The translations under genes were made by a program, and so were the position numbers. Positions 8,002 through 63,585 of a stretch of DNA of 64,000 nucleotides are shown one piece after another (the stretch's first letter is position 1; every line of letters begins with the position of its first letter). Source of the DNA: Pseudomonas synxantha. GTDB taxonomy: Bacteria; Pseudomonadota; Gammaproteobacteria; Pseudomonadales; Pseudomonadaceae. The notes under the pieces were generated by a model, which was given only the letters and a program-made list of their open reading frames with translations, was not told the DNA's origin and ran no database searches. The stretch is taken from the NCBI RefSeq assembly GCF_900105675.1, contig NZ_LT629786.1, forward strand, positions 2,232,001 through 2,296,000, read 5' to 3'.

Positions 8002-8130
8002 TTAGGTGTGAATATTCAATCTTTTTTTTGCGAACACGATTCAATGCATCGTACGAATAGGCACGGGCAAGGGCCGGCTATAAGCGCCGGTACGCGGCCT
8101 TGAGCCGTTGTTGAAGGATGGAATTCACGC

Positions 8131-8167
8131 AAAAAAAAACCGGCCCACAAGGAGCCGGCCAAAAAAA
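8131..8167 (-). terminator. Rho-independent terminator of the chemoreceptor gene
   Basis: On the minus strand, directly after the chemoreceptor stop, the sequence reads GGCCGGCTCC, a TTGT loop, then GGGCCGG followed by a run of ten T. A matching A/T run on the other side could make it work in both directions. Confidence 0.85.
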
Positions 8168-8175
8168 CGCCTGTG

Positions 8176-9789
8176 CTAAAGGCTGAACCGATCCACGGAC
8201 TGCGACAATTTACTCGCCAAACCGGCCAATTCATCAGTGGTCGAGGCGGTTTCACCAATAACGCGGCTGTTGTTTTGCGACATGCCGGCAATCATTTCCA
8301 CCTGATGGGCGATTTCGTTGCTGGCCAGGCTCTGTTCACTGATGGTGCGCGAAATATCGTTAACCAACTCGGTGGTATTCAAGGTGGCCTGAAGAATGTC
8401 GCGGATAGCTCGCTCCACCTCAGCGGTCACGGCCATGCCTTTGTCCACCTGGGAGACGCCCTCCTCCATGCTGGTCACCGCCTCACGGGTGTTTTGCTGG
8501 ATACGCCCGACCATGCTGGCAATTTCCTGGGTCGATGCGCTGGTGCGTCCCGCCAGGCTGCGCACCTCGTCGGCCACTACGGCAAAACCGCGCCCCTGCT
8601 CACCCGCACGGGCGGCCTCGATCGCGGCGTTCAAGGCAAGCAGGTTGGTCTGGTCAGCAATGCCTTTGATCACCTGGATAATGCTGTAGATGGCCTCGGA
8701 CTCCTTATCCAGCGTGCGGATGACCTGGGCCGACTGCTGCGCTGAACGGGCGATGCCGTCCATATCCTTGACCACCTGGTGAATGACACGGCCACCGTCC
8801 TTGGCCAGGGTTTCAGCCTGGTTGGCCATGTCGAGGGCGCGCCCGGCGTGGCGAGTGATTTCCTCGATGCTGGCGGTCATCTCACTTGCGGCCGCCGCCA
8901 TGGCGCTGGCAGCGCTACTTTGTTGCTGGCTGCTGTCGGCCACTTCATGGCAACCCTGGCTCAGGCGCTCGCTCATGCCATTGACGCCATGGGCGTTGCT
9001 GCGCACCACCTCGATCATGCCGCGCAGGTCGCGCTGCATGGTAGACAGACTGCTGATCAACAAGCCGGCTTCATCCTGGCGACGCGGCTCCACAATCGGC
9101 TCGCTCAGGTTGCCCCGGGCGATGCTCGCGGCGATGCGGCTGGCGGTTTGCAGTGGTCCCATGATGCTCAGGGTCACCCAGCGTCCTTGCGCGAGCAGTA
9201 GTAGCAGGCTGGCAATCAACACCACGCCGAGGGTCCAGTCGGCGTTGCGGATGGTCTGCCGGGTGCTGGTGCTGGTGCGTTGGGTATTGGTTTCGATCAG
9301 CTCGCTCAGCGTGGCCATTTGATCTTCCAGCTGACTGAACGCGGCATTGAAGGTACCCAGCTCGCCACGAGCCGTCTCGGGATTGCTCAGGGCCAGCGCG
9401 ACGATGCGCTCGCCCGCACTTATATAGGTGTCAAGGCTGGGTTTGATTTTTTCCAGGCTTGCCCTGATGTCGTCGTCCAGCGGCAGCTTGAAATTGTCCG
9501 CCAACACTTGGCGAAAGTGCTCGGCATGCTCTTTGAGTGAGGTGTTGACCTCGGCCGGGGTGCTGTTGCTTTTACCCAGGCCCACCAGCATGGCCGACAA
9601 CACATCGGCGCGCAGGGCGTCGTGCATCATGTCCGCTTCCATGTGATTACGCAGCACGGTCATGCTGACTTCACTGTCCTCAACCGCTGCCCCCATCCGG
9701 TTATTTCCCAGGTAACCGGCCACGCTCATGACCAACGCAGTGAGCAATCCGGTCGCAATCAACAACATCAAGCGCAATTTGATCGTCAT
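8176..9789 (-). CDS. Methyl-accepting chemotaxis protein
   Basis: A 537-residue inner-membrane chemoreceptor. Helix 1 is at about residues 6-27. A four-helix-bundle-type periplasmic ligand domain runs from about 30 to 185, helix 2 is at about 187-207, and a HAMP domain at about 208-262. The cytoplasmic signalling domain has the highly conserved hairpin tip IADQTNLLALNAAIEAARAG and GRGFAVVADEVRSLAGRT. There is no C-terminal CheR-docking pentapeptide. The ligand domain looks like a helical-bundle sensor of the TarH/4HB type, so the ligand cannot be predicted. It stands alone with its own terminator. Confidence 0.95.
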   Translation of the reverse strand: MTIKLRLMLLIATGLLTALVMSVAGYLGNNRMGAAVEDSEVSMTVLRNHMEADMMHDALRADVLSAMLVGLGKSNSTPAEVNTSLKEHAEHFRQVLADNFKLPLDDDIRASLEKIKPSLDTYISAGERIVALALSNPETARGELGTFNAAFSQLEDQMATLSELIETNTQRTSTSTRQTIRNADWTLGVVLIASLLLLLAQGRWVTLSIMGPLQTASRIAASIARGNLSEPIVEPRRQDEAGLLISSLSTMQRDLRGMIEVVRSNAHGVNGMSERLSQGCHEVADSSQQQSSAASAMAAAASEMTASIEEITRHAGRALDMANQAETLAKDGGRVIHQVVKDMDGIARSAQQSAQVIRTLDKESEAIYSIIQVIKGIADQTNLLALNAAIEAARAGEQGRGFAVVADEVRSLAGRTSASTQEIASMVGRIQQNTREAVTSMEEGVSQVDKGMAVTAEVERAIRDILQATLNTTELVNDISRTISEQSLASNEIAHQVEMIAGMSQNNSRVIGETASTTDELAGLASKLSQSVDRFSL

Positions 9790-24644: not shown

Positions 24645-25367
24645 ATGGACCGTCTTTCAATGCTCGCTCGCTGGTTACCCGCTGCAATCAATACCCGCCC
24701 CTCCGAATGGAGCCGTGCCGCAATCGGCATGGCGCTGGGCACAATGTTCAGTGTCTGGGCCTGTGCCCAAGTGTTCGGCATGGAGGTCGCCCTGCACCTG
24801 CTCGGCCCGCTTGGGGCCTCGGCGGTGCTGCTGTTTGCCGTCTCATCCGGGGCCCTGGCCCAGCCGTGGTCGATCATGGGCAGTTATCTCTGCGCCGGCA
24901 TCGTGGCGTTGCTGGTAGCACGGGTGCTGGGGCGTACCTTGGGCAGTGCTTGCCTGGCGGCCGGCATGACGGTGATCCTGATCTGCTGGCTGCGTTGCCT
25001 GCATCCACCGGCCGGTGGCCTGGCCATGACCCTGGTATTGGCCGACCCGGCCTCTATCGCACTGGGCTGGCACGAGCTGGCGCCGGTGATGCTCGGCGCC
25101 GGCGCCCTGCTGGCCTGTGCCCTGGCCTACAACAACGCCACGCGCACGCGTTACCCCAAAGGCCCTGTCGAGCCTGCGCCGATCTTTATTACCAACGCGC
25201 CCGTGACCGATCCCGCCATTACCGCCGCCGATCTCAAGCTGGCGCTGGCCGAGATGGAGCAGTTCTTCGATGTCGAGCCCACGGAGCTGGAACAGTTGAT
25301 ACATGCCGCCGAAGTCCATGCGCGGCGACGCAGTATCGGCGAGGTGCTGGCAAGTCGTGTGGGCTGA
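24645..25367 (+). CDS. HPP family integral membrane protein
   Basis: The 240-residue product has four helices in its first 160 residues and the signature LRCLHPPAGGLAMTLVL, where His-Pro-Pro gives the family its name. HLLGPLGASAVLLFAVSSGA is the other conserved stretch. A cytoplasmic tail of about 80 residues (AADLKLALAEMEQFFDVEPT) is mostly helical. Some HPP proteins of bacteria and plastids are linked to nitrite transport; the substrate here is unknown. Single gene. Confidence 0.88.
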   Translation: MDRLSMLARWLPAAINTRPSEWSRAAIGMALGTMFSVWACAQVFGMEVALHLLGPLGASAVLLFAVSSGALAQPWSIMGSYLCAGIVALLVARVLGRTLGSACLAAGMTVILICWLRCLHPPAGGLAMTLVLADPASIALGWHELAPVMLGAGALLACALAYNNATRTRYPKGPVEPAPIFITNAPVTDPAITAADLKLALAEMEQFFDVEPTELEQLIHAAEVHARRRSIGEVLASRVG

Positions 25368-25640
25368 GGCCTTATCCGCACCACGCGACAGATGGTGCAA
25401 TGCGCCGCTTGCGACCAGGCGGCTGACGACTAGAGTCAACATAGCACTTGAAGTTGTCTGCAGTTCAAAAGATGTCTGGGCCTTGCTGTACCAGTAGCGA
25501 AGACAAGGAACGTCTGGCTTTGGATCAATAGCAGCAGCTGCCCCTATCACCTGGGTATCTGATGCCCTCCTCGTAGTTTTCCTGCCAGTGCTCCTGCTCG
25601 GGTGTTTCGAAATGCTCATTCGAAACAGGAGAGCTTTGCC

Positions 25641-27257
25641 TTGAACGACCTATTCGAACAATTACTCGGTTCGCCTCTGTTCGAGCCGCGCCAACGCCAT
25701 CACATGCCCCTGAAAAGCTACATGCATCTGACCATCAAGCGTATGCATGCGATCTTTGGCACCGGCCTGATCAATAACGAACTGTGGATGGGCCAACCAC
25801 GGCAATCGGAGTTTTCTTCGCTGTGCGAGTTGATGGGGTATGTGGGCGCCTTTGATTACGCACTCCACTCCTCGATAGTCGATCACATGATTGCCGTCGA
25901 CACATTGTTCAACCATGGCTCTGCCGCACAAGTGAATCGCTATCGAGACGAAGTGATCCACCTGCGCAAGGTCTACGCCTTCGGCTGCACGGAAGTCGCA
26001 GGGGGAACCGACGTGCGCAATGTGCGAACGACGGTGACGTACGATCGGCAAAACCATAGCCTGGTGCTCGACTCCCCTTCCCCTGAGGCCTGCAAGTGCT
26101 GGATAGGCAATGCCTTGCGCGCAGCCCAGGTGCTGATGGTACTTGCCCGCCTGATGGTCGACGGTGAGGATCAAGGCCATCATTGGTTTCGCGTGGTTAT
26201 TCGCAAGCGCGAAAACGGTCGGCTGCTCAATGGCGTGAAAATAATGGCGTGTGATCCCAAGGGTGGAATCCACGCCAACCAAGTGGCGGCAATACGTTTC
26301 TGCCAGATGAAGTTGCCCGTTGACGCGCTGCTGCAACGCCATGCGCACTTCACCGACAAGGGCACGTTCGTCAGCGACCTGCCGTTACCCCTGCGTTTTA
26401 TCGAGGCGCTGAAGACGTTTCTGCAAGAGCGATTGATCTTCATGGCAGGCATTCGCCACAGTGCCGGCCTTACCGCTCACCTGAGCTACCGTTTCGCCCA
26501 TCACCGCCTCATCCAGGCGCCCACGGGCCAAGAGGCATTGCTGAGCCAGCCGATGTTTCGTCAACGCCTTTACGCCATACAGCTCAAGGCGCTCGCGCTC
26601 AAATACCTGGAGCAGGCAGTGCGCAAGCGCTTCGAAGCCGACTGGGCACAGGAGGCAAAGCGCAAGGAACTCCACGTGCTGGCCGCCTTGTGCAAGGCAG
26701 TGGGTGCATGGCAAGGGCTCAATGTGATCGCCTTGTCTAGAGAACTGTGTGGATCCCAGGGATTTCATCATTACAACCAGATCGTCACTCAGCGCATGGA
26801 TTGCGAGGTTGCAAATACCTTTGCCGGTGACAGCTCGATCATGGCCTATCAGGTGATCAAGGACGCCCTGGCACGACAACGGTTCGTCGACAGCCCGCCC
26901 TCCAACATCGGCCAACGCGTAGAAGCGCAGATCCTCGAGCAATGCCGCAAAGCCCCCGGGTTTACCCATGCACAGGCATTGGGGCTGGCCTATGCCAAGG
27001 CACTGGACCTGGTGATTCAGGAGGCTGAAACCCTGGGGCTGCTGTCTTGCGCGACCATCGAAGACTTGATCGGTGAGTTCGCTGATCAATTGTATCCATG
27101 GGGTGTGCGCAAGCCCCAACGTGACATGGAGGTCAGCCCACCGCAGATCGAAGCGTTGGCCAAGCAGCTCAAACCGCCCCAGGTGCTGGTCAGCGCACTG
27201 ATCGATTCAACTGATTATATCCAGCAGTTCACGCGCGCACTCTATGAGGAGCAATGA
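25641..27257 (+). CDS. Acyl-CoA oxidase/dehydrogenase-like flavoprotein
   Basis: A 538-residue protein with the acyl-CoA oxidase/dehydrogenase fold. FGCTEVAGGTDVRNVRTTVTY matches the flavin/substrate-binding segment TELGHGSNVRGIETTATY of acyl-CoA oxidases in spacing and character. The helical C-terminal half includes ELCGSQGFHHYNQIVTQRMD, equivalent to the GGHGY region. Start TTG 25641 is chosen because AGGAG lies 8 bases upstream; a GTG at 25602 would add 13 residues. First gene of a tight three-gene cluster with the P450-RidA fusion 1 bp after it. Expected to desaturate an acyl chain on CoA or a carrier protein; the real substrate is unknown. Confidence 0.75.
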   Translation: MNDLFEQLLGSPLFEPRQRHHMPLKSYMHLTIKRMHAIFGTGLINNELWMGQPRQSEFSSLCELMGYVGAFDYALHSSIVDHMIAVDTLFNHGSAAQVNRYRDEVIHLRKVYAFGCTEVAGGTDVRNVRTTVTYDRQNHSLVLDSPSPEACKCWIGNALRAAQVLMVLARLMVDGEDQGHHWFRVVIRKRENGRLLNGVKIMACDPKGGIHANQVAAIRFCQMKLPVDALLQRHAHFTDKGTFVSDLPLPLRFIEALKTFLQERLIFMAGIRHSAGLTAHLSYRFAHHRLIQAPTGQEALLSQPMFRQRLYAIQLKALALKYLEQAVRKRFEADWAQEAKRKELHVLAALCKAVGAWQGLNVIALSRELCGSQGFHHYNQIVTQRMDCEVANTFAGDSSIMAYQVIKDALARQRFVDSPPSNIGQRVEAQILEQCRKAPGFTHAQALGLAYAKALDLVIQEAETLGLLSCATIEDLIGEFADQLYPWGVRKPQRDMEVSPPQIEALAKQLKPPQVLVSALIDSTDYIQQFTRALYEEQ

Positions 27258-27258
27258 C

Positions 27259-28872
27259 ATGGACCTTCAGTCACTACCCGATTTTGCCGACCCTGAAACC
27301 ATAGGTGAACCCTACGCAGCATTTGCCTACTTGCGTCATCACCACCCACTGTTTTGGTCGCAACACTACAAGGCCTGGTTGCTAACCCGGTTTGACGACG
27401 TATCCGCCGCACAGGCCGATGCCCGCCGTTACTCCTCCAATCGCATGCGCGAGCTGGTAAATGCCCAGGTGCCCGCACACCAGCGAGCGGCACTGGAACC
27501 TTTCATCGAGAAGGCTTCGCGCTGGATGTACGCCCAGGACGGCAAGGCCCATGAAGCCGGGCGCAAGGTGCTGGGCAAGACTTTTACCCCGCGTGCTATT
27601 GACGCACTGGCAGATGACATCGAGCAGATCGTCGATGACTTGCTGGCGCGATTAAGCCCCCAGCCAGAGCTGATGACAGAACTGTTCAACAAGATTCCCG
27701 CATTGATCCTGGCGCGCATGTTCGGCATACCTGCGCAGGAAGCACTGAAGGTCAGGCGTTGGACGGATGCGATCATCGTGTTCATGGTGGGCAGCACCGA
27801 TCCGGCATTCGGGCCGCGAGAGGCCTTGCAGGCGATGGAAGAGATGTACGAGTATTTTTCGCGTCTTGTCGATGAACGTCGTCAATCACCTGGCGATGAT
27901 CTGGTCAGCCAAGTGATTGCCGCTGGCGAACAGGCGATGATGACCAAAGACGACTTCCTGGCTCAGTTGGCCTTTATATTGGTAGCGGCCACGACGACCA
28001 GCGCCGATCAATTGGGCATTATCCTGTTCTATTTGCTCACCCACCCGCAGGCCTTGGCCGAACTCAAGGCCAACCCGGGGCTGATCCCCAATGCCATCGA
28101 GGAAGCGTTGCGCATTTGCCCCGCCGGGCAGCTGAGTCATCGCGTCGTCACCGAAGACGTCACGCTGCATGGCCAGACCCTGCACAAGGGTGACCTGGTA
28201 TACCTGGTCCGCGCCGCGGCCAATCGTGACCCCCGGCACTTCAACGATCCTGATCGCTTCGACATCCATCGCCAGCAGCACGACCACCTTGCGTTCGGTC
28301 GTGGCCCGCATTTTTGCATGGGCACATTGCTCTTCAAGCTCGAAGCAAAGATCGCATTTACCCGTCTGCTGCAACGCTTTCCCGATGTGCGCCTGATTGA
28401 CGAGCAACAGCCAGCATGGCGTACCAACAGTCTGCAATTTCGTGGTTTGAGTCATATTCACGTCGCGCTGCAACCGGCTGGCGCGGCCATCACGCGTTGC
28501 TTTTCCGCAGCCCCGTGGGAAAAGAACGGCGGCTACTGTCGAGCGCTACGCGCAGGAAACCTGATTGTCACCAGTGGCACGGTAGCGTTCGATGAACAAG
28601 GCAATCCCTACGCTCCCGGTGATGTATATCGCCAGACCAGACGCTGCCTGGAAATCATCGAAACCGCGCTCAAGCAGTTGGGCGTCGACAGGACCCTTGT
28701 GGTCGCCACACGCATGTACACCACCGATGTGGCCTGGTGGCCACAAATCGCCAAGGCTCATCAGGAGTTTTTCAGCCATTGTCCACCGACCACCATGCTG
28801 CTGGGCGTCAATCAATTGATCGCGCCTGCCTATCTCATAGAAATAGAGGCCCAGGCATGGACCGGCCAGTGA
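27259..28872 (+). CDS. Cytochrome P450 fused to a RidA/YjgF domain
   Basis: The single 537-residue frame encodes two enzymes. Residues 1-405 are a soluble bacterial P450: I-helix ILVAATTTSADQ (240-251), ExxR as E282-A-L-R285, PDRFDIHR, and the haem loop FGRGPHFCMG with ligand C353. Residues about 413-533 are a RidA/YjgF domain: GNLIVTSGTVAFDEQGNPYA, RCLEIIETALKQLG and LIEIEAQA. The I-helix lacks the usual acidic residue before the conserved Thr, and the RidA catalytic Arg position seems to be Thr (PPTTMLLGV). Start ATG 27259 follows GAGGAG; an ATG at 27244 overlaps the upstream stop. The junction is continuous with no frameshift signs. The reaction is not predictable. Confidence 0.85.
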   Translation: MDLQSLPDFADPETIGEPYAAFAYLRHHHPLFWSQHYKAWLLTRFDDVSAAQADARRYSSNRMRELVNAQVPAHQRAALEPFIEKASRWMYAQDGKAHEAGRKVLGKTFTPRAIDALADDIEQIVDDLLARLSPQPELMTELFNKIPALILARMFGIPAQEALKVRRWTDAIIVFMVGSTDPAFGPREALQAMEEMYEYFSRLVDERRQSPGDDLVSQVIAAGEQAMMTKDDFLAQLAFILVAATTTSADQLGIILFYLLTHPQALAELKANPGLIPNAIEEALRICPAGQLSHRVVTEDVTLHGQTLHKGDLVYLVRAAANRDPRHFNDPDRFDIHRQQHDHLAFGRGPHFCMGTLLFKLEAKIAFTRLLQRFPDVRLIDEQQPAWRTNSLQFRGLSHIHVALQPAGAAITRCFSAAPWEKNGGYCRALRAGNLIVTSGTVAFDEQGNPYAPGDVYRQTRRCLEIIETALKQLGVDRTLVVATRMYTTDVAWWPQIAKAHQEFFSHCPPTTMLLGVNQLIAPAYLIEIEAQAWTGQ

Positions 28873-29735
28873 TGACCGCCGAGAAAGTCCGCGCCGCAGT
28901 GCGTGATGCTGTGGTGATGAGCGTGCAGGACTGCTCGGTCGAGACGGCGCCGCGCTCGGTGCGTATACGCCTGTACCGGCAGTCGACAACCGCGCCTGCC
29001 CCAGTATTGCTGTATTTTCATGGCGGGGGCTGGGTAGCTGGTGACCTGGATACCCATGACAGCTTCTGTCGGATCATGTGCGAATGGGCAAGGTGCGTGG
29101 TCGTTGCAGTAGATTATGCCAGGCCACCGGAATCTCGCTTTCCCGCCGCCGTGGAAGATTGCTACGCCGTCACCGAATGGGTGGCCGCCCAAGGCATGAC
29201 TCTGGGGCTGGACAGCCACCGGATCGCAGTCGCCGGTGGAGGTTCCGGGGGTGGCCTGGCAGCGGTTATCTCCCAGATCGCCCATGAACGCCACGGTCCC
29301 ACCATTGGTTTCCAAATGCTGCTCTATCCGCTTCTCGATTGTCTGGCACGCACTCGTTCCCGGGCCGAGTTCGCGGGTAGATCCGGCCTGACCGCTGAAA
29401 TGCTCAGCTGGTATCTGGGCCAATATGTGGGCGAAGGGCAATCTTTGGACCATTCCTGGTTGTCGCCAGCGCACCGGGCTTCGTTACAGGGCTTGCCCAA
29501 AGCGCTGATTCTCACCGCCGGCTGCGATTTACTGCGTGATGAAGGCCGGGCTTATGCACACCGTTTGAAAAAAGCCGGCGTGCAGGTAAGACACACAGAG
29601 TACCCAGGCATGGACCACGGTTTTATCAACTACCCTGGTGAACACCTCGCTGCGCGCAAGGCCATCCTCCAGTGTGCGCACGCCCTGGCGGAGCATTTTG
29701 GCGGCGGGATGCCCCCAGGCCCCACCCCTGCATAA
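28857..29735 (+). CDS. Alpha/beta hydrolase of the hormone-sensitive lipase family
   Basis: A 293-residue esterase. The oxyanion-hole motif is HGGGW (H55-W59); the nucleophile is S130 in GGGSGGG, in place of the more common GDSAGG. The Asp lies in LTAGCDLLRDEG and the His in GMDHGFINYPG. No signal peptide, so cytoplasmic. Start ATG 28857 has GAGG 8 bases upstream and overlaps the end of the P450-RidA gene by 16 bases; ATG 28872 (TGATG junction) is an alternative. It probably releases or trims an ester or thioester product of the two preceding enzymes. Confidence 0.85.
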   Translation: MDRPVMTAEKVRAAVRDAVVMSVQDCSVETAPRSVRIRLYRQSTTAPAPVLLYFHGGGWVAGDLDTHDSFCRIMCEWARCVVVAVDYARPPESRFPAAVEDCYAVTEWVAAQGMTLGLDSHRIAVAGGGSGGGLAAVISQIAHERHGPTIGFQMLLYPLLDCLARTRSRAEFAGRSGLTAEMLSWYLGQYVGEGQSLDHSWLSPAHRASLQGLPKALILTAGCDLLRDEGRAYAHRLKKAGVQVRHTEYPGMDHGFINYPGEHLAARKAILQCAHALAEHFGGGMPPGPTPA

Positions 29736-29852: not shown

Positions 29853-30956
29853 ATGACTGCTCAGGTTTTATCCGAAGCAAACCGCAGCGAGGGTCTTCAG
29901 GAAGATGTCTTGGCTGAAGTGCGCAACCATATTGGCCACCTCATCCTCAATCGCCCCGCCGGATTAAATGCCATCACCCTGCACATGGTGCGCCTGTTGA
30001 CCACGCAGTTGCGGGCCTGGGCCGATGATCCGCAGGTCCATGCCGTTGTATTGCGCGGCGCCGGAGAGAAAGCCTTTTGTGCCGGCGGCGACATCCGTTC
30101 CCTGTATGACAGCTTCAAGAACGGCAACACCCTGCACGAGGATTTCTTCGTCGAGGAATATGCGCTCGACCTGATCATTCACCAATACCCTAAACCCGTG
30201 CTGGCGCTGATGGACGGGTTCGTCCTCGGCGGCGGCATGGGGCTGGTACAAGGCGCAGACCTGCGAGTGGTTACCGAGCGCAGCCGCCTGGCCATGCCGG
30301 AGGTGGCCATCGGTTACTTCCCGGACGTGGGCGGCAGCTATTTCCTGTCGCGTATTCCCGGTGAACTGGGGACTTACCTGGGCGTCACCGGGGTGCAGAT
30401 CCGCGCGGCGGACGCCCTGTATTGCGGATTGGCCGACTGGTATATCGACAGCGCAACGCTCCCCGAACTGGACCAGCAGCTTGATCGTCTGCAATGGCAC
30501 GACTCGCCCCTCAAGGACCTGCAAGGCGTGCTCGCCAAACTGGCCGCGCAGCAATTGCCCGATGCGCCACTGGCGACCTTGCGGCCGGTCATCGACCATT
30601 TCTTCGCCTTGCCGGATGTGCCGAGCATTATCGAGCAGTTGCAGGCGGTTACTATCGCCGATACCCATGAATGGGCATTGACCACCGCCCACCTGATGCA
30701 GACCCGCTCGCCACTGGCCATGGCCGTGACCCTACAAATGCTCCGCCGTGGCCGCCACCTGACGCTGGAACAGTGTTTTGACCTGGAGCTGCACCTGGAC
30801 CGCCAGTGGTTCGAGCGCGGCGACCTGATCGAAGGGGTTCGTGCGCTGATCATCGACAAGGACAAGACCCCGCGCTGGAATCCGCCGAGCGTTAATGAGC
30901 TGGACGCCGCTCATGTCAAAAGCTTCTTCAGCGACTTCGTGCAGATTGAGAAATAA
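29853..30956 (+). CDS. 3-hydroxyisobutyryl-CoA hydrolase
   Basis: A 367-residue crotonase-fold enzyme of valine breakdown that frees 3-hydroxyisobutyrate from CoA. The family-specific stretches are EKAFCAGGDIRSLYD (oxyanion hole), MDGFVLGGGMGLVQG, and MPEVAIGYFPDVGGSYFLSR, where the Glu and Asp of the hydrolase subtype are kept. It is longer than simple enoyl-CoA hydratases (about 260), as expected. The next gene, 3 bp on, is an isobutyryl-CoA-type dehydrogenase, supporting the valine assignment. Confidence 0.9.
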   Translation: MTAQVLSEANRSEGLQEDVLAEVRNHIGHLILNRPAGLNAITLHMVRLLTTQLRAWADDPQVHAVVLRGAGEKAFCAGGDIRSLYDSFKNGNTLHEDFFVEEYALDLIIHQYPKPVLALMDGFVLGGGMGLVQGADLRVVTERSRLAMPEVAIGYFPDVGGSYFLSRIPGELGTYLGVTGVQIRAADALYCGLADWYIDSATLPELDQQLDRLQWHDSPLKDLQGVLAKLAAQQLPDAPLATLRPVIDHFFALPDVPSIIEQLQAVTIADTHEWALTTAHLMQTRSPLAMAVTLQMLRRGRHLTLEQCFDLELHLDRQWFERGDLIEGVRALIIDKDKTPRWNPPSVNELDAAHVKSFFSDFVQIEK

Positions 30957-32130: not shown

Positions 32131-32572
32131 TGTGGGAGGGGGCTTGCCCCGATGAGCATGGGTATCTACACAACTCTGACGTAGCGACCGTCAGTAACCA
32201 CGATGCGAAGCGAGCCGCTCTTGATCTGCTTCTGATCTTGATCTTAGGCGCCCCGTTAAACCACGCTGGCCGGAATTCGACAGGGATTTGGGGGGTAAAC
32301 CGGCAGGGATGCCGGTTTAGCCGCCCCGCGCCATGAATGGCGCGTGGCGGCGGCCCCCCAAATCCATGGCGGATTACGGGCACACCGAGCCTAAGCGAGG
32401 TGCCGAGTGGTGGGGCAAGAGCGTTTGGTTACTTTGCGCTTTTCAAAGTGACCCGCTGTAAAAGCGGAACCAATAGTGGCCGTTGCCCAAATAACGGATA
32501 TGTACTCGGTCTGATCCAACATTCTGGTCGGCTGTCAGGCCGCCATCGGGGGCAAGCCCCCTCCCACATTTG
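32131..32572 (+). repeat. Long intergenic repeat, copy A, bounded by REP arms
   Basis: About 440 bp begins with TGTGGGAGGGGGCTTGCCCC and ends with GGGGGCAAGCCCCCTCCCAC. Inside are a strong palindromic core around 32295-32360 (GGTAAACCGGCAGGGATGCC, then GGTTTAGCCGCC and GGCGGCGGCC), the stretch CACCGAGCCTAAGCGAGGTG and CGGATATGTACTCGGTCT. An inverted second copy is at 46386-46816. P. fluorescens genomes are reported to carry families of such intergenic repeats. The gap at 32112-32597 holds no gene; frames reading MARGGGPPNP are repeat-derived. Confidence 0.85.
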
Positions 32573-46385: not shown

Positions 46386-46816
46386 ATGTGAGAGGGGCTT
46401 GCCCCCGATGGCGGCCTGTCAGCCGACCAGTATCTTGGATTAGACCGAGTACATATCCATTGCTGCGGTAACGGCCACTTAAGGTTCCGCTCTTACAGCG
46501 GGTCACTTTTGGAAAAGAGCCCCAAAAGTAACCAAAAGGCTCTTGCCCCACCACTCGGCACCTCGCTTAGGCTCGGTGTGCCCGTAATCCGACAGGGATT
46601 TGGGGGGCCGCCGCCACGCGCCATCCATGGCGCGGGGCGGCTAAACCGGCATCCCTGCCGGTTTACCCCCCAAATCCCTGTCGAATTCCGGCCAGCGTGG
46701 TTTAACGGGGCGCCTGAGATCAAAATCAAAAGCAGATCAAGATCAGGAGCGGCTCGCTGCGCATCGTGGTTACGGTCTGCTGCTACGAAGTTGTGTAGAT
46801 ACCTATGCGATCCAAA
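46386..46816 (-). repeat. Long intergenic repeat, copy B, inverted relative to copy A
   Basis: The reverse complement follows copy A (32131-32572) almost throughout: CTACACAACTTCGTAGC, CGTTAAACCACGCTGGCCGG, GGTAAACCGGCAGGGATGCC, CACCGAGCCTAAGCGAGGTG, GGATATGTACTCGGTCT, then the REP arm. The palindromic core is identical in layout; differences cluster near the ends. The gap 46290-46925 contains this repeat and the next REPIN and no gene that I can support. Confidence 0.85.
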
Positions 46817-51294: not shown

Positions 51295-52719
51295 TTAAGC
51301 GATAACAATCCCCTCCCCTGACACACTGCTCACTCCCACCAGCGTCACCGAGTCGGCGCCAAAGCTGATCACCGTGTCTGCGCCCACCACCTTGGTGTGC
51401 TCGCGATAATCCGTACTGCCCTGCACATCGGTGAATACCAGCTTGTCGGTTGCTTGATAGCCAATCACCCGATCATTGCCAAACTGCCCGCTGAACAAAA
51501 ATGTGTTATGCCCGCTGCTGTCGCGGATCGTGTCATTGCCCTTGCCGCCTTCGATAAAGTCCGCGCCCCGGCCGCCCTTGATCAGGTCGTTGCCATCGCT
51601 GCCGATGATGAAGGTGTTGCCCTTGTGTGCCTCGGCGTTGCGATTCAAGTCCTGCACCCAGGTGGTGGCCCGTGCCGGGTCGGACAGGTTGGCGACAATT
51701 ACCGTGGAGTCGCGGGTCATTTGCTCGTAGAAGCCGGAATCGAGGATGCGGGTCATGCCGTCGCCGTAACCGGTGGGCAAGTGTGAAACCCAGGTCGGCA
51801 GGTTGAGGATGGAAAATGGCAGCACGTTCCACAGCGTTGACGCGTAGTGGTCGTTGAAGCTGACGATATTGTCGGTGCTCGATTCGTGGGGCGTGTCGTG
51901 CACACCCAGGGACGACAGGTTGAATGACGAGCCGTCCAGGGCGCGGAACACCGGGTCGTTTTCATAGCCGACGTTCAGCACCTTGTCGCCGGCGCTCTGG
52001 GTGGGTGAAGCATACGCCACGTAGTTGGCGTCCTTATAGAACCCCGACCATTTGCCGTCGCTCAAGTCGGCCATGCTGTTGACCGCCAGGCCGCCCAGGC
52101 TGTGGCCGCTGACCACCACGTCGTTGCCGCTCAGGCCTTGGGCCGTGGCGTAGGCCGCGACGTTGCCGAGCAAGTTGCCAAAGGCTTCGCCCGTGTAGTT
52201 TTTCGCATAGTCCTTGGGACCGAACGCGGCCAGCAGGTCGCTGATCACGTCGCCGATGGCGTCTGTGACCAGGTTTTCCCGAGGTCCCGACGTACCACGA
52301 AAGCCGATGCCGATTTCCTGCAATTTACCAGCGTCATCGTACTTGCCCAGCACCTCGACCTGCGCCGTGGCGTAGGCAGGCTTTTCACCGAAGAAAGTGC
52401 CCCGGACATCAACCTTGCCGCTGTAACCCAGGGTATCGGCGCTGATGGGGGTCCAACCGGCTTTTTGTACCGCATCGAGGGCGGCTTTTTCCGCGTCGGG
52501 GTTCCAGGGGATACCAGGGATCACCCCTTGGGAGTCGCTGCTGCCAATCAGCGCGCCGATCAGTGTGGCCGGCAACCCAAGGCCGAGACCATTGTTCTGG
52601 TAGCCGACGGCAAAGCCGTGATCCAGGTTGTGGTAGGCATACACCGTGAGCGCCATGGCATCGGCGAACAACGCCTTGGAGTCCTCGGTACCGAGGTTTT
52701 TATAGTCAAAGATACCCAT
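51295..52719 (-). CDS. lipA: Extracellular RTX lipase, TliA/LipA2-type (family I.3)
   Basis: The product is 474 residues from ATG 52717-52719 (MGIFDYKNLG), behind GAGAGG. It is very close to the P. fluorescens thermostable lipase TliA along its length. The nucleophile is S207 in VVSGHSLGGLA, with IGFRGTSGPRENLVTDAIGD upstream. Glycine-rich RTX calcium repeats at about 372-395 (GSDGNDLIKGGRGADFIEGG) and the hydrophobic C-terminal end form the uncleaved type I secretion signal. Exported by AprDEF, encoded upstream in the same direction. It hydrolyses triglycerides and is a known cause of milk spoilage. Confidence 0.96.
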   Translation of the reverse strand: MGIFDYKNLGTEDSKALFADAMALTVYAYHNLDHGFAVGYQNNGLGLGLPATLIGALIGSSDSQGVIPGIPWNPDAEKAALDAVQKAGWTPISADTLGYSGKVDVRGTFFGEKPAYATAQVEVLGKYDDAGKLQEIGIGFRGTSGPRENLVTDAIGDVISDLLAAFGPKDYAKNYTGEAFGNLLGNVAAYATAQGLSGNDVVVSGHSLGGLAVNSMADLSDGKWSGFYKDANYVAYASPTQSAGDKVLNVGYENDPVFRALDGSSFNLSSLGVHDTPHESSTDNIVSFNDHYASTLWNVLPFSILNLPTWVSHLPTGYGDGMTRILDSGFYEQMTRDSTVIVANLSDPARATTWVQDLNRNAEAHKGNTFIIGSDGNDLIKGGRGADFIEGGKGNDTIRDSSGHNTFLFSGQFGNDRVIGYQATDKLVFTDVQGSTDYREHTKVVGADTVISFGADSVTLVGVSSVSGEGIVIA

Positions 52720-52772
52720 TGGTAGTGCCTCTCTGTTGTTGGATTTGTAGAGAAAGCCAAAACACCAGTAGC

Positions 52773-52803
52773 CCCCTGATGGACACCGTGGGCCCATCAG
52801 GGG
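52773..52803. repeat. 10-bp inverted repeat between the second autotransporter and lipA
   Basis: CCCCTGATGG and CCATCAGGGG are perfect complements around an 11-nt loop, between the stop of the autotransporter at 52814 and the lipA start at 52719. No long T-run follows on the minus strand (GCTACTGGTGTTTTGG). It may tune expression of the last gene of the operon or stabilise the upstream mRNA end. Confidence 0.55.
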
Positions 52804-52813
52804 AGTGACGCCT

Positions 52814-55800
52814 TTAGAACGCCCAGTCCAGGCTCAAACCGACGCCGTGCACTTTCTCCTTGCTGGCCAGCAGGCCGTTGTAGTCGAAGTTCACCCGCGC
52901 CTCCTTGCTCAACGCCAGGCTGACCCGTGCCCCGACCAGTGCGGCATCGCGCACCATCGGCGCACTTTCCACGCTGAACGAAGGGCCACCGGAGGCGAAC
53001 GCCAGGTGCTGCTCGGAATCGGTGCTGCTCAGGTTGTGCTGCCAGCCCAGGGTGCCGGACACCTCCAGTTGCTGGTGGTCGTTGACGTTGAAGGTTTTCA
53101 AGGCACGCACACCCAGGGTGCTCAACACCAGGTCGCGGCTGTCATCGCCACTTTTCAGCGCAGCGGCATCGCCCTTCTCCTTGAAGCTGTCAGTGTCCAG
53201 ATGCACGTAGGCCAGGTTGGCGAACGGCTCCAGGGCCAGCGGTTGCAGGTTGATGCGATACGCCGCCTCGGTGAACACCTGGGTGCTGTGTGCATCGACC
53301 TTGGCCTTTTGCTTGCCGCTGACGTCGCCGTATTGCAGGTCGCGCTTCACATCGGCGCGGTGCCAGCTGTAGGTTGCGCCACCGCTCAGGCGCCAGGCGC
53401 CGATTTCATGCCCGGCATAGGCCCCGAAGTGGTAGCTGTCGACCGAGGCACGGCTGTGGGTGTCGCTGCCCATGTTCAGCGACGTGTCGCTGTAGCCCGC
53501 CACCAGGCCGATGCGCGTGGCGTCGTCGAGCGCCCCATCCACCCCGGCGAGCATGCCGCCGATGGAGGTGTTATAGCCTGCCGTGTCGCTACGGCTGTCG
53601 GTCTTGCCCCAGGCGCCCAGGGCCTTGACCCACACGTTGCCGCGGGTGTCGATGGCTTGGCTGGTGGCGCCCATCTCGCCATTGCGCAGGCGCTCGCCTA
53701 CCGCTTCGCGAACGTAGCGGCTGTCATTGACCAATGCGGTTTGCAGCGCTGGGTAGACTTCACCACTCAGTTGCTGGAATGCACCCTGGGCCGAGGCGGC
53801 CGTGGGTGCCAGCAGCAAGCTTTCATACACACCATTGCCCGCGCCCAACTGCTCGGCGGCGGCGGCCACGGCGCGCTGGTTCGGCGTGGCGGCCACACTG
53901 GCGAAGCTGTTAGTGCGCGCCACATCCAGCTGCACACCGTTGGCCGCGTAGGTCAAGGTGCCGCCAACAAACAGGTAGTTGGGCAATACCGCACCAAAGC
54001 TGCCGGTCACACCACCTGCCGCTTGCAGGATGTTGTATTGGCGGCCGATCAGACTTTGGGCCTGGGTCGCGCTCAACAACGTCGGGCTGTTTTCCAGGGC
54101 CAGGGTCACGGTGCCGCCGTTAAGCGTGGCGGTACCACCGGCGACGATGCGGTCGCTGCTGGTGGGCGACAACTCCACGGCATAGGTCGAGCCCGGCTCA
54201 AAGGTGACGTTACCCGCCACGTTCAAGGTGCCGATGGAATTACCCGGCGCCACGGTGCCACCGTTTTTTGCGGTCAGCGAACCGATGCGCCCCGAGCCAC
54301 CGAGCACGCCGGCCTGGCCGACGCTGACGTCGGAAGCCAGCGAGCCGTTGATCGCCAACAAGCCCTGGTTGACCAGGGTCGGGCCGCTATAGGTGTTGGT
54401 GCCGGTCAGCACCAGGGTGCCGATGCCCTGCTTGGTCAGGCCGCCATGGCCCGAGATATCGTTGCTCCACACATCCAGCCCGCAGTGCACATCGTTGCAA
54501 ATCCGCTGGGTCGGCTTACCGGCATCTACCACTGCGCCGATCCCTGGCAGGTCCGCCACGAACTGGCCGCTGCCGTAAGCGCCATCGATACGGAACTCGG
54601 CGGGAATATCCTCTGCGGTAACAAACATCCCCGGCCCGTTGACCGCCTTGCCCAGGTTGATCATGCCCCAGCCATACAGCGAGTCGATGCCCGGCGCGCC
54701 GAGGTCGGTGGCGGTGGTCTTGAGCAGCGTGGAGATCTGGTCGCCGCTCATGTACTGGAAACGCTCCATCAGCACTGCTGCTGCACCTGCCACATGGGGC
54801 GCGGCCATGGAGGTGCCGTTTTTGTTGGCCCAGTCGGTGGTCAGGTTGTTCAGGTCGGTGCCATTGATGATCGAGCTGTAGATCTTGGTGCCGGGTGCCG
54901 ACACGCAAAAGCTCGCTGCATAGCCGCAGCGCGAGGAGAAGGTGCTGATCACATAGGGATTGGGGCTGGTGGTGTCCGGGTTCTGCTGCAACGCCGCTAC
55001 TGACAGCCAGTTCGGCGCAATCTCCGGCACAAAATAGGCCAGGCCGGAAATCGCATCCGGGTTGTTGAGGTTGTAGTCGTTACCGGCGGCAAAGATGGTC
55101 AGCACACCGCTGCGCGCCGCATCGATGGCGCCTTGATAAGCACCGCCTGCGATCGTGCCGAGGATCGGCCGGATCGTATTGAACTGCGCCTGGGCTTCAT
55201 TGACGGTGAAATTGGGGAACGCCGGATCGCGGCCGCCCTTGGCATATTGATCACCAATGCCAATGCCCCAGCTGTTGTTGATGATGCGTGCGCCACTGGC
55301 GACCAGCCCATCCCAGCCCGCTTTGTACACCGCGCCGTCGTTGCCGAGGATGATCCCGTCTTCCGGCCCCGGGTCACCGTTTTCGGCGGTAAGGATTTGC
55401 GCATTGAACGCCACACCATGCATGGGCCCGCCGTCGCGGTTACCCGCAGCAATGCCGCCGACGTGGGTGCCGTGGTTACCCAGCTTGCCGTTGGAGTCCT
55501 TGGACGGCGTGCCGTCGTAGCGGAACGCATCACCCGCCTTCACCGGAATATACGGGTCGGTGTATTGGCGGATGCCCTCGGTGACAATCGTCACCACCTT
55601 GTCGGGGCTGGCGAACTCCGGATGCTGGGCGTACACCGGCTGGTCGAAGATCCCAAGCTTGACGCCCTTGCCGGTGTAGCCGGCGGCATACGCGGTGTCG
55701 GCGTGCACGGCGCCCAGGCCCCAATCGGCCTTGAACTCATTGCTGCGCCAACTGGCGGCGTCGCCGAGTTTGCCAGTTTCTACGTAGGGTGCGGCCTGGG

Positions 55801-55921
55801 CGGTTCCCAGGCTGGCCAGGCAACACAGCAGCGCACCATATGGTACGCAGCTCAGCGCCTTGAGCGGGTAGCCCGGGCCGGTGTGGATGGCGATGGTTAA
55901 CCCTGACTTGCGTTTTTTCAC
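52814..55921 (-). CDS. prtB: Autotransporter subtilisin-like serine protease (PrtB-type)
   Basis: The product is 1035 residues from GTG 55919-55921, which follows AGGAAGG; no suitable ATG is available. An extended signal peptide of about 43 residues ends in GTAQA. The subtilase domain has Asp in LGIFDQP (about residue 93), His in GNHGTHVGG (about 150) and Ser in NGTSMAAPHVAGA (about 375). Then come an autotransporter-associated repeat (LVLTGTNTYSGPTLVNQGLL) and a beta-helix stalk. A C-terminal beta-barrel of about 280 residues ends in the outer-membrane signature WAF. It is secreted by its own barrel (type V). Confidence 0.92.
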   Translation of the reverse strand: MKKRKSGLTIAIHTGPGYPLKALSCVPYGALLCCLASLGTAQAAPYVETGKLGDAASWRSNEFKADWGLGAVHADTAYAAGYTGKGVKLGIFDQPVYAQHPEFASPDKVVTIVTEGIRQYTDPYIPVKAGDAFRYDGTPSKDSNGKLGNHGTHVGGIAAGNRDGGPMHGVAFNAQILTAENGDPGPEDGIILGNDGAVYKAGWDGLVASGARIINNSWGIGIGDQYAKGGRDPAFPNFTVNEAQAQFNTIRPILGTIAGGAYQGAIDAARSGVLTIFAAGNDYNLNNPDAISGLAYFVPEIAPNWLSVAALQQNPDTTSPNPYVISTFSSRCGYAASFCVSAPGTKIYSSIINGTDLNNLTTDWANKNGTSMAAPHVAGAAAVLMERFQYMSGDQISTLLKTTATDLGAPGIDSLYGWGMINLGKAVNGPGMFVTAEDIPAEFRIDGAYGSGQFVADLPGIGAVVDAGKPTQRICNDVHCGLDVWSNDISGHGGLTKQGIGTLVLTGTNTYSGPTLVNQGLLAINGSLASDVSVGQAGVLGGSGRIGSLTAKNGGTVAPGNSIGTLNVAGNVTFEPGSTYAVELSPTSSDRIVAGGTATLNGGTVTLALENSPTLLSATQAQSLIGRQYNILQAAGGVTGSFGAVLPNYLFVGGTLTYAANGVQLDVARTNSFASVAATPNQRAVAAAAEQLGAGNGVYESLLLAPTAASAQGAFQQLSGEVYPALQTALVNDSRYVREAVGERLRNGEMGATSQAIDTRGNVWVKALGAWGKTDSRSDTAGYNTSIGGMLAGVDGALDDATRIGLVAGYSDTSLNMGSDTHSRASVDSYHFGAYAGHEIGAWRLSGGATYSWHRADVKRDLQYGDVSGKQKAKVDAHSTQVFTEAAYRINLQPLALEPFANLAYVHLDTDSFKEKGDAAALKSGDDSRDLVLSTLGVRALKTFNVNDHQQLEVSGTLGWQHNLSSTDSEQHLAFASGGPSFSVESAPMVRDAALVGARVSLALSKEARVNFDYNGLLASKEKVHGVGLSLDWAF

Positions 55922-55988
55922 GGTGACCTTCCTTAGTTTTCTTATTGCACGTGTGTAAATCACTTTCTCCAGAACAGCGCCGATTCAA

Positions 55989-56082
55989 TGTGAGAGCTGG
56001 CTTGCCTGCGATGGCGTCCGGCCAGTCACGCCTCTGCTGGCTGACCCACCGCTATCGCAGGCAAGCCAGCTCCCACATTTTT
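55989..56082. repeat. REPIN of a second sequence class between the two autotransporter genes
   Basis: The arms TGTGAGAGCTGGCTTGCCTG and CAGGCAAGCCAGCTCCCACA differ from the GGGGGCTTGCCCCC class seen elsewhere in the window. They are separated by about 55 bp that contains GGCCAGTCACGCC. A T-run follows the right arm. It divides prtA from prtB and could attenuate transcription into the downstream genes. Confidence 0.8.
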
Positions 56083-56096
56083 TGTTCGCGGTGTCC

Positions 56097-59054
56097 TCAG
56101 AACTGCCAGTTCAGGCTCAAGCCCACGCCTTGGGTTTTCTCGCGCCCACCCAATTGGCCGTTGTAATCCAGGTTGACCCGCGTCGACGCATTCAGCGCCA
56201 GGCTGGCCTGTACGCCCACCAGGGCGGCGTCACGCAGCAACGGCGCGCTGCGCACGGCAAATGAAGGCCCGCCTGCGACAAACGCCAAATGTTCTTCCGA
56301 CTCCACCGCCGTCAGGCTGTGTTGCCAGCCCAACGAACCGGACAGTTCCAGTTGCTGGTGGTCATTGAGGGCCAGGGTTTTCAAGGCACGCACGCCGAGG
56401 GTGCTGAGCACCGCATCGCGCCGGTCACTGCCACGCTCCAGGGCGGCGGCATCGCCTTTTTCGTGGAATGACTCGCTGTCCAGATGCACGTAGGCCAGGT
56501 TGGCGAACGGTTCCAACGCCAGCGGTTGCAAGTGAATGCGGTACGCCGCTTCGGTGAACAGTTGCGCGGTGGTCGCATCCAGCTTGGTTTTTTGCTTGCC
56601 GCTGACGTCCCCCAGTTGCAGGTCGCGCTTCACATCGCCGCGGTGCCAGCTGTAGGCACCGCCGACACTCAGGCGCCAGTCGCCCAGTTCGCGCCCGGCA
56701 TATGCGCCGAAGTGGTAGCTGTCGATGGACGCCGATGAGTGCGTGCCACTGCCCATGTTCAGCGAGCTGTCGCTGTAGCCGGCGACCACACCCACGCGGG
56801 TCTGCTCATCCAGCGCGCCATCCACGCCCGCCAGCAGGCCACCGATGGAGGTGGTGGAACCCGCCGTTTCACTGCGGCTGTCGCTTTTGCCCCAGGCGCC
56901 CAGGGCCTTGAACCACAGGTTGCTTTCACCGCTCACCGGCACATGGCGCAGGCGCTCGCCCACAGCGTTGCGCAGTTGCAGGCTGTCGTTGATCAGCATC
57001 GCGCCAACCGCAGGGTAGATTTCACCGGACAGTTGCTGCAGGCCCTGTTGCGCGGTGGCAACTGATTGCGACTGCAGCAGGCTTTCATACACCGGGTTGC
57101 CAGCGCCCAGTTGCTCGGCAGCCGCCGCCACGTTGCGCTGGTTGCGGGTGGCAGCAACGCTGGCAAAACTCGCGTCGTTGCGCCCGACGTTCAGTTGTAC
57201 AGCGTTGGCGGCGTAGTCAAGGGTGCCGCCAAGGAATACATAGTTGGGCAGCACTTGCCCGAACTGACCCTGGATACCGCCCGCCGCATCCAGGATCGAG
57301 TATTGCCGGCCAATCAGGCTTTGCACCTGGCTCTGGCTGAGCAGCGTCGGGCTGTTTTCCATCGCCAGGGTGACGGTGCCGCCGCCCAATACCGCCTTGC
57401 CACCCGCAACAATGCGGTCGCTGCTGGTGGGCGTCAGTTCCACTGCATAGGTCGAGCCCGCGCCGAGGTTCACATCCCCCGCTACCTGCAAGGTGCCCAC
57501 GGAATTGCCCGGTGCCACGCGGCCGCCGCTGTTCACCGACAGCGCGGCGATGCGCCCGGAGCCGCCGAGAGTACCGCTGTTGTTCACCGTGACCGCCGAG
57601 GTCAGCGAGCCATTGACCGCCAGCAGGCCGCCGTTGACGGTGGTCGCGCCGCGATAAGTGCTGTCGCCGCTGAGCACCAGGCTGCCGGCGCCGGACTTGA
57701 TCAGGCTACCCTCGTATACGCGTTTGGCGGCGGCCTGGTCGCGGGCGTTGCCGATGGCGTAGTCAGTCTGGTCCTGCTGGCTGGCATTGGCGCCCACGCC
57801 GTTTTGCCAACCCTTGTCGATCAAGGTCTGCTGCCAGGCGGTGTGCTCGGCACGGTCCTCGGCCTGGCGCTGGAGCAAGGCCTGGTCGGAGATGCCATTG
57901 CTCCATACATCACCCTGCCCGGCTGCCAGGCTCACATCCATGACCCCGAGCAGTTGCCCCGGCCCATGCATTGCCCGGCCCAGGTCCGGCACGCCCCAGC
58001 CGACGATAGCGTTGGGCGCCTGGGTGATCGAGCCGTCGAGCTGCGTGGCGGTGGTCAACAGCACCTGCAGCGCCTGCTCATTGGTCATATAGGGATAGCG
58101 TTCCATCACCAGCGCCAACGCCCCGGTGGCATGGGGCGCCGACATCGAGGTGCCGGACTTGACCCCATAACCGCCGTCGGGAATGGTGCTGTTGATCAGT
58201 GCCCCTGGAGTGGAAATGCACCAGTATTTGGCGATGCCGCATTTGTTGTACTTCTGGTTATTGGCTTTATCCAGCCCCGACACCGCCAGCCAGTGGCCTT
58301 CCAGTTCCGGTTGGAAATACGGCAAGGCCGAGCGCACGCTGGCATTTGCGTAGCCGCTGTTGCCGGCACTGAACACATTGATCACGCCGGCCTTGGCCAC
58401 ATCCGCCGCGGCGTCCAGCCAGGTACCCTGGTTGTAATGCTGGGCATAGGCCTTGTGCAGGTCATCCAGGGTCTGGTAGCTGACGTCCTTGGGCTGGCTG
58501 CCCCAGCTGTTGTTGATAGCGCGCACGCCGGAATCCACCAGGGCGCTATACACCGTCTTGAAATACTTGGGGTCCGGGGTCGGGCCGAACAGGAAGCTGT
58601 CGTTGGCGTTGGTGTTGCCCACATAGACTTGGGCGTTGTAGGCCACCCCATGCATGCCCACGCCGTCGCGGGCGGCGCCCATGGTGCCGGTGACGTGGGT
58701 GCCGTGGGAGTCGTTGTTGGGGTTGAGCGCGCCCGTGGTGCTGAAGGCGCTGCCGTCGACATAGGTGCCGGTGGCGGTCACCCCATGGAAGCGGTCCTTG
58801 GCGGCTTCGGGGTGGTTGGGGTCGAAACCCGAGTCCAGCGCGCCGATTTTCACACCTTTGCCGCTGATCCCGGCAGCGTAGGCTTCATCGGCCTTCATCC
58901 GCCCCAGGCCCCAGTCGCTCTGGTATTCGGCCGAGCGCCAGCTGACCGGGTTACCCGGTTGGCCGGTCTCGGTGTATTGCGCTTGTGCCGCAACGGACAG
59001 CAGCAGCAAGGAGCCGGCGGTGAAGGGTTTGAAACGCGGTGAATCAGTGATCAT
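56097..59054 (-). CDS. prtA: Autotransporter subtilisin-like serine protease (PrtA-type)
   Basis: A 985-residue type V secreted protease. A signal peptide (TAGSLLLLSVAAQAQ) is cut near residue 25. The catalytic triad is Asp74 in IGALDSGFDP, His117 in DSHGTHVTG and Ser in KSGTSMSAPHATGA near 310. An autotransporter repeat (LVLSGDSTYRGATTVNGGLL) and a stalk with GTLGGSGRIAALSVNSGG come next. A C-terminal barrel ends SLNWQF. The stalk and barrel are strongly similar to those of the downstream protease while the catalytic domains differ more, suggesting tandem duplication. AAGGATGG precedes the ATG. Follows aprF by 31 bp. Confidence 0.93.
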   Translation of the reverse strand: MITDSPRFKPFTAGSLLLLSVAAQAQYTETGQPGNPVSWRSAEYQSDWGLGRMKADEAYAAGISGKGVKIGALDSGFDPNHPEAAKDRFHGVTATGTYVDGSAFSTTGALNPNNDSHGTHVTGTMGAARDGVGMHGVAYNAQVYVGNTNANDSFLFGPTPDPKYFKTVYSALVDSGVRAINNSWGSQPKDVSYQTLDDLHKAYAQHYNQGTWLDAAADVAKAGVINVFSAGNSGYANASVRSALPYFQPELEGHWLAVSGLDKANNQKYNKCGIAKYWCISTPGALINSTIPDGGYGVKSGTSMSAPHATGALALVMERYPYMTNEQALQVLLTTATQLDGSITQAPNAIVGWGVPDLGRAMHGPGQLLGVMDVSLAAGQGDVWSNGISDQALLQRQAEDRAEHTAWQQTLIDKGWQNGVGANASQQDQTDYAIGNARDQAAAKRVYEGSLIKSGAGSLVLSGDSTYRGATTVNGGLLAVNGSLTSAVTVNNSGTLGGSGRIAALSVNSGGRVAPGNSVGTLQVAGDVNLGAGSTYAVELTPTSSDRIVAGGKAVLGGGTVTLAMENSPTLLSQSQVQSLIGRQYSILDAAGGIQGQFGQVLPNYVFLGGTLDYAANAVQLNVGRNDASFASVAATRNQRNVAAAAEQLGAGNPVYESLLQSQSVATAQQGLQQLSGEIYPAVGAMLINDSLQLRNAVGERLRHVPVSGESNLWFKALGAWGKSDSRSETAGSTTSIGGLLAGVDGALDEQTRVGVVAGYSDSSLNMGSGTHSSASIDSYHFGAYAGRELGDWRLSVGGAYSWHRGDVKRDLQLGDVSGKQKTKLDATTAQLFTEAAYRIHLQPLALEPFANLAYVHLDSESFHEKGDAAALERGSDRRDAVLSTLGVRALKTLALNDHQQLELSGSLGWQHSLTAVESEEHLAFVAGGPSFAVRSAPLLRDAALVGVQASLALNASTRVNLDYNGQLGGREKTQGVGLSLNWQF

Positions 59055-59085
59055 TTAAACCATCCTTATTTGTTGTTATGGATGC

Positions 59086-63484: not shown

Positions 63485-63585
63485 ATTATTTGATCTTCCT
63501 TGGAGCGAATGACGCGCAATAATCACCCTTGCCCCAAACAGGGCTCGGCCAACTATTAAATCTAGTTATATGCTTATAACTTGAA

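Follow-up and report, generated by a model that had tools for sequence, protein, structure and literature searches.

A cytochrome P450 joined in one frame to an arginine-less Rid domain, within a conserved four-function gene cluster of Pseudomonas

Covalent joining of a cytochrome P450 to a partner domain is best known from the self-sufficient P450s of the CYP102 and CYP116B types, which carry their redox partner. In Pseudomonas, P450s are also found joined to a flavoprotein; we take these fusions to be CYP221, CYP221A1 presumably being one of them. Two members of CYP221A are given in the table of PMC7998510, the available part of which does not show their architecture. For the Rid proteins, imine hydrolysis has been tied to Arg105 of RidA, and members lacking this arginine have been placed in Rid4–7 (available parts of PMC4433059 and PMC5619798). 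Arg-bearing Rid proteins display broad imine deaminase activity (PMC5619798, in part). The Arg-less Rid4–7 proteins, on the other hand, belong to PF01042 and keep the Glu and Tyr of the site; the single Rid7 protein tested gave no detected imine hydrolysis, and in 2015 the roles of these subfamilies were described as unknown (PMC4433059, in part). In the hybrid nicotine pathway of strain S33, a gene annotated as Rid6 is proposed to remove the enamine or imine arising from an oxidoreductase of the same cluster; this role is a predicted one, and the part of the paper available mentions no fusion (PMC7688666). The azaserine system (PMC10445470, in part) offers a loose analogy. Among the matches listed from the open-licence literature we found no description of a P450–Rid fusion, and PMC4921024 names Rid solely in its reference list.

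We analysed a stretch of 64,000 nucleotides from Pseudomonas synxantha (hereafter the window), in which a P450–Rid fusion gene lies between a flavoprotein gene and a hydrolase gene. The genes of this cluster adjoin or overlap, the hydrolase gene starting before the fusion gene has ended. The features are as follows.

24645..25367, forward strand: HPP membrane protein (PF04982), left flank; border of the cluster, outside it
25602..27257, forward strand: acyl-CoA-oxidase-like flavoprotein, 551 aa; PF22924 and PF02770 above cut-off
27259..28872, forward strand: P450–Rid fusion gene, 537 aa; start perhaps earlier, at 27244
27259..28446, forward strand: P450 domain, about residues 1–396; I-helix VAATTTS 242–248, ExxR 282–285, haem Cys353
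28447..28497, forward strand: linker, about residues 397–413; occupies the site of the stop-codon–start junction of split relatives
28498..28869, forward strand: Rid domain, about residues 414–537; Tyr426 and the site Glu retained, Thr512 equivalent to Arg105
28857..29735, forward strand: alpha/beta hydrolase of the hormone-sensitive-lipase type (PF07859, E = 5.3e-70); start at 28857 or 28872
29853..30956, forward strand: protein of the 3-hydroxyisobutyryl-CoA hydrolase type (HIBCH), NCBIfam subfamily NF004127 above cut-off, right flank; border of the cluster, outside it

The fusion gene translates as a single stop-free frame of 537 aa, or of 542 aa if the alternative in-frame ATG upstream (27244) is used. 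Its only domains found by Pfam are PF00067 (p450; E = 4.1e-27, above cut-off) and PF01042 (the Rid or YjgF/YER057c/UK114 family; E = 4.6e-21, residues 423–533, 75.5 bits compared with a cut-off of 27.3). A redox-partner fusion is thus ruled out: unlike the self-sufficient P450s, the protein has no reductase or ferredoxin domain found by this search. In a structure predicted from an alignment of 62 sequences, confidence is high for both domains (mean pLDDT 91.8, pTM 0.76), with weaker blocks at residues 401–430, between the two folds. A fold search of the viral library with the fusion gave matches to P450s and to YjgF-type proteins. Translation, Pfam and model therefore agree with the original prediction that one frame holds a full P450, with haem Cys353, together with an entire Rid domain.

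In the P450 domain, the haem motif FxxGxxxCxG is present as FGRGPHFCMG, which contains Cys353, and the ExxR of the K-helix as E282–R285 (EEALR from residue 281). All 50 fold matches listed from the library of solved structures are P450s. The closest by sequence and fold are bacterial soluble P450s such as PksS, EryF, BioI and CalO2, whose matched chains are P450 domains (25–32% identity in the 50 listed fold matches). The acid–alcohol pair of the I-helix is the usual P450 motif, although not a universal one; here the acid is replaced by Thr in VAATTTS, with the following Thr kept. This replacement is found in nearly all of the fused and split P450 rows, the motif reading VAATTTS in 15, VAGYTTS in five and LAGNTTS in two of the 22 fused rows. 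The P450 is 55% identical over 398 residues to that of P0050, a flavoprotein–P450 fusion. P450 families are named by a rule of more than 40% identity, and we take the window P450 to fall with CYP221 under it.

The active site of the Rid domain departs from that of the imine deaminase group (RidA, Rid1–3). Aligned with PH0854, and likewise with other Rid copies of the same genome, Thr512 occupies the Arg105 column. The 22 fused rows, the window's included, all have Thr at this position, and the 20 closest standalone Rids have Thr (12), Leu (seven) or Met (one); the arginine is thus missing in 42 of 42 sequences. Tyr426 and the Glu of the site (IEIEAQA at 527) are retained in alignment with other Rid proteins. 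Against TIGR00004 the domain scores 45 bits, with 106 required, and against RutC 34, with 169 required. The original prediction that the domain acts on an imine or enamine has therefore to be narrowed: hydrolysis in the manner of RidA is doubtful with Thr512 in place of Arg105, while the kept Tyr and Glu leave carboxylate-free substrates possible. The domain resembles the Arg-less Rid4–7 proteins in its PF01042 membership, its Glu and Tyr and its lost Arg, and differs from those in the available part of PMC4433059 in being fused to a P450. The genome has seven other Rid-family places, with the Arg kept in all five that were compared (L048 and L050 being left out). With seven further copies, protection against imines in general is probably a task of other proteins. 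By the consensus of that subfamily, the domain is probably a Rid6. More distant standalone relatives, one of them from a Gemmatimonas MAG, are about 46–57% identical to a Rid of a split cluster. In two further proteins (P0122 and P0123), a Rid domain 50–56% identical to this one is accompanied by a lumazine-binding domain of the riboflavin synthase type or by an RNase H domain.

The original prediction had left to a database search whether the two-domain order recurs. At least 21 other proteins carry it, with 63–97% identity, among the 120 matches listed of 2432 (7996 candidates scored). An organism name is attached to six of these 21, and it is Pseudomonas in every case. One JGI record (P0010) is already titled ‘cytochrome P450/enamine deaminase RidA’; the order was thus already present in databases. 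A search with the Rid part only, among proteins of 0.55–1.75 times the full length, returned 32 matches from 80 candidates: these 21 relatives with both domains again, and 11 proteins of other architectures, none with a P450. This search reaches relatives sharing short exact words, and distant fusions could escape it. Independent genome records with the fused frame come from P. libanensis, P. fluorescens PfR 37, P. pisciculturae, P. veronii and P. marginalis; P. khavaziana has a fused frame too, but with the P450 start absent, bringing the genome-record loci to six overall. None of the nine fused loci read has a stop at the junction, and this recurrence in other proteins and independent genomes bears out the joined frame, in which the original prediction had seen no sign of frameshift. 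In a draw of the genus, 10 of 398 genomes matched at E = 1e-100 or better: five with the fused frame (the window's own genome counted), three whose match is interrupted by one TGA and two in which the P450 part alone is in frame. Another genus draw, which overlapped the first and had P0023 as the query, gave 10 of 397, including one new fused locus (G532/L044), and the six matches in a draw of 293 relatives were all among those of the first genus draw. The cluster is rare, occurring in a minority of Pseudomonas. No plasmid home was found for P0023, the 107 records obtained all being below 60% identity.

The order of the cluster is conserved. The fused loci L007, L008, L010–L012 and L044 have HPP, flavoprotein, P450–Rid, alpha/beta hydrolase and HIBCH in succession. 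The split loci L022–L026 have the same order, with Rid as a standalone gene immediately after the P450; L022 has a different right-hand flank, and the hydrolase of L025 was found in L020, a short locus from the same genome. The short loci L013–L021 are consistent with this order. Such an order of flavoprotein, P450, Rid and hydrolase in fused and split relatives makes the functional link between P450 and Rid, as first suggested from the window, likely. The partner genes, the split relatives and the alternative flavoprotein–P450 fusion had no place in that first prediction. Of the 75 matching genomes, 47 have a close HPP gene (29 HPP rows at or below 54% identity were dropped, and one HIBCH row was taken for each genome), and in 42 of these HPP and HIBCH lie on one contig and strand. 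The gap between them is below 600 bases in 31 genomes, 600–3500 bases in four, 3.5–10 kb in six and 53 kb in one. HPP and HIBCH being direct neighbours in many genomes, the cluster appears as an accessory block whose position is largely fixed. Three of the six genomes with a gap of 3.5–10 kb (G000, G016 and G074) hold the cluster; in the other three (L039–L041) no cluster protein matched between HPP and HIBCH. The interval there holds other sequence and may be an insertion hot spot. At L009 of P. khavaziana (8043–9275), neither the flavoprotein gene nor the start of the P450 is present, while Rid and the hydrolase match those of the window at 100% and 96%; at this locus the cluster seems to be in decay. 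Consensus scans gave no promoter-like and two terminator-like sites, fewer than in shuffled sequences.

Elsewhere in the window, an inverted repeat of 208 bases (97% complementary) has its arms at 32219–32426 and 46535–46742, 14 kb apart, with an adjoining pair of arms of 116 bases (88%) at 32445–32560 and 46394–46509. The reverse strand at 51295–63526 carries a run of genes whose translations, inspected by eye at their starts only, resemble a lipase, a pair of large secreted proteases and a type I secretion system.

For the flavoprotein, the best PDB matches by both sequence and fold are acyl-CoA oxidases. The Glu of the FEG motif is catalytic in acyl-CoA oxidases and dehydrogenases, some dehydrogenases keeping it elsewhere. 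Ala408 of the flavoprotein aligns with this Glu of ACOX1 (‘TFAGD’ compared with ‘TFEGE’), and ‘TFAGD’ is found in all 12 aligned rows. The flavoprotein would thus lack the usual catalytic Glu, and a base at another position may serve; this absence is read from the sequence, since the predicted model is moderate (pLDDT 76.7) and falls below 50 at residues 405–408. The alpha/beta hydrolase scores 309 bits against NCBIfam LipP1, under the cut-off of 350.

In Pseudomonas at a greater distance, P450 and Rid are separate, adjoining genes, whose junctions suggest a route to the fusion. Three (L022, L023 and L024) of the five split loci that were read have the P450 codons followed by TGA, one codon and the ATG of Rid in a single frame, so that loss of a single stop is enough for fusion. 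In L025 stop and start overlap (ATGA), and in L026 Rid starts two bases past the P450 stop. The fused genes have 17–19 residues between the last P450 motif, FRG, and the Rid core. An alternative fusion occurs in the same cluster: flavoprotein and P450 are joined in P0050, P0051, P0053–P0055 and L024, the latter as one frame of 949 aa. These proteins (as compared for P0050, P0053–P0055 and L024) share the cluster, the P450 family and the flavoprotein partner with the window; Rid is separate there, whereas in the window Rid is fused and the flavoprotein is separate. A 227 aa protein, P0153, has a flavoprotein start joined directly to a P450–Rid end with most of the P450 gone, which reflects either a deletion inside the region or a faulty assembly.

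In the P450 tree, the fused P450s and the standalone P0023 and P0024 form one clade (98/94), and the remaining split P450s with the flavoprotein fusions form another (99/99); the fused rows stand alone on one side of a branch in 11% of the bootstrap trees. In the Rid tree, which leaves out P0021 (motif filter), the fused rows and the standalone P0148 form one clade (99/93). Given the standalone forms inside the fused clades, the covalent link is either dispensable or arose on two occasions; the trees are compatible with a single fusion that later came apart and with two fusions. By the Nei–Gojobori method (eight window pairs and two others reported, the truncated L009 gene excluded, synonymous sites being near saturation in distant pairs), dN/dS in window pairs is 0.06–0.15 for the P450 (seven of eight computable), 0.02–0.17 for Rid (eight of eight) and 0–0.45 for the linker (six of eight), with a linker value of 0.55 in L011/L012. 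Purifying selection acts on the P450 and Rid domains alike, and dN is lower for Rid than for the P450 in all eight window pairs.

We consider it probable that the cluster processes one small substrate stepwise, the flavoprotein, P450, Rid and esterase/lipase-type hydrolase working in succession, and that in one branch loss of the stop between the neighbouring P450 and Rid genes gave a bifunctional protein. Rid would follow the P450 and handle or shield its reactive product, for example a carbinolamine, a neutral imine/enamine or an enol; as the Arg that binds the carboxylate has been lost, this product is unlikely to be an ordinary alpha-imino acid. Trimerization of the Rid domain, a trait of the Rid family, would gather three P450 units, and the hydrolase may open or release an ester-, lactone- or amide-type group. 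Since the cluster genes include no redox partner, the electrons for the P450 must come from redox proteins encoded outside it. The conserved order, the overlapping genes and two different fusions in one cluster support a shared pathway, and our confidence is high for the functional link and low for the chemistry. Canonical residues appear to be missing from all three redox/Rid parts, which could mean weak or altered activity.

That a sequencing or assembly error deleted a stop is virtually precluded: separate adjacent P450 and Rid genes do exist in relatives, as the original prediction had foreseen for that case, but the 21 other fused proteins, the independent named genomes and the stop-free junctions of the nine fused loci rule out an error in the joined frame. 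We also regard it as improbable that the domain is an ordinary RidA deaminase for an alpha-imino acid from the P450 or the flavoprotein. Its PF01042 membership and the broad imine deaminase activity of Arg-bearing relatives would suit such a role, but Thr512 stands at the Arg105 site and the TIGR00004 and RutC scores fall far below those required.

Two serious rivals to sequential processing remain. The Rid domain may be non-catalytic, only trimerizing or stabilizing the P450 or delivering substrate to it, in keeping with the arginine missing throughout the 42 sequences and with the Rid7 protein without detected imine hydrolysis; we hold this to be rather unlikely given the retained Tyr and Glu, the low dN of Rid and the separate Rid gene that adjoins the P450 at each of the five split loci examined. 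The fusion itself could be a neutral loss of a stop codon between genes coupled in translation, bringing no functional advantage. The single TGA and codon that divide P450 from Rid in L022–L024, the standalone forms inside the fused clades and the fast-evolving linker all speak for such a neutral event, whereas the fused form has been kept in at least 22 proteins down to 63% identity, and we are inclined to doubt it; even a neutral link would leave the shared cluster standing. A more specific and still more tentative form of the stepwise pathway is an Arg-less Rid with a catalysis that has not been described, which would take a neutral short-lived product from an atypical P450 within a trimer, in a pathway shared with an esterase and a flavoprotein that lacks the Glu.

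The covalent link to a P450, in a cluster of four functions, offers a definite reaction where the role of an Arg-less Rid can be sought. The natural fused and split versions permit a direct test of the effect of the link, and the flavoprotein–P450 fusion in relatives is extra evidence for a single pathway.
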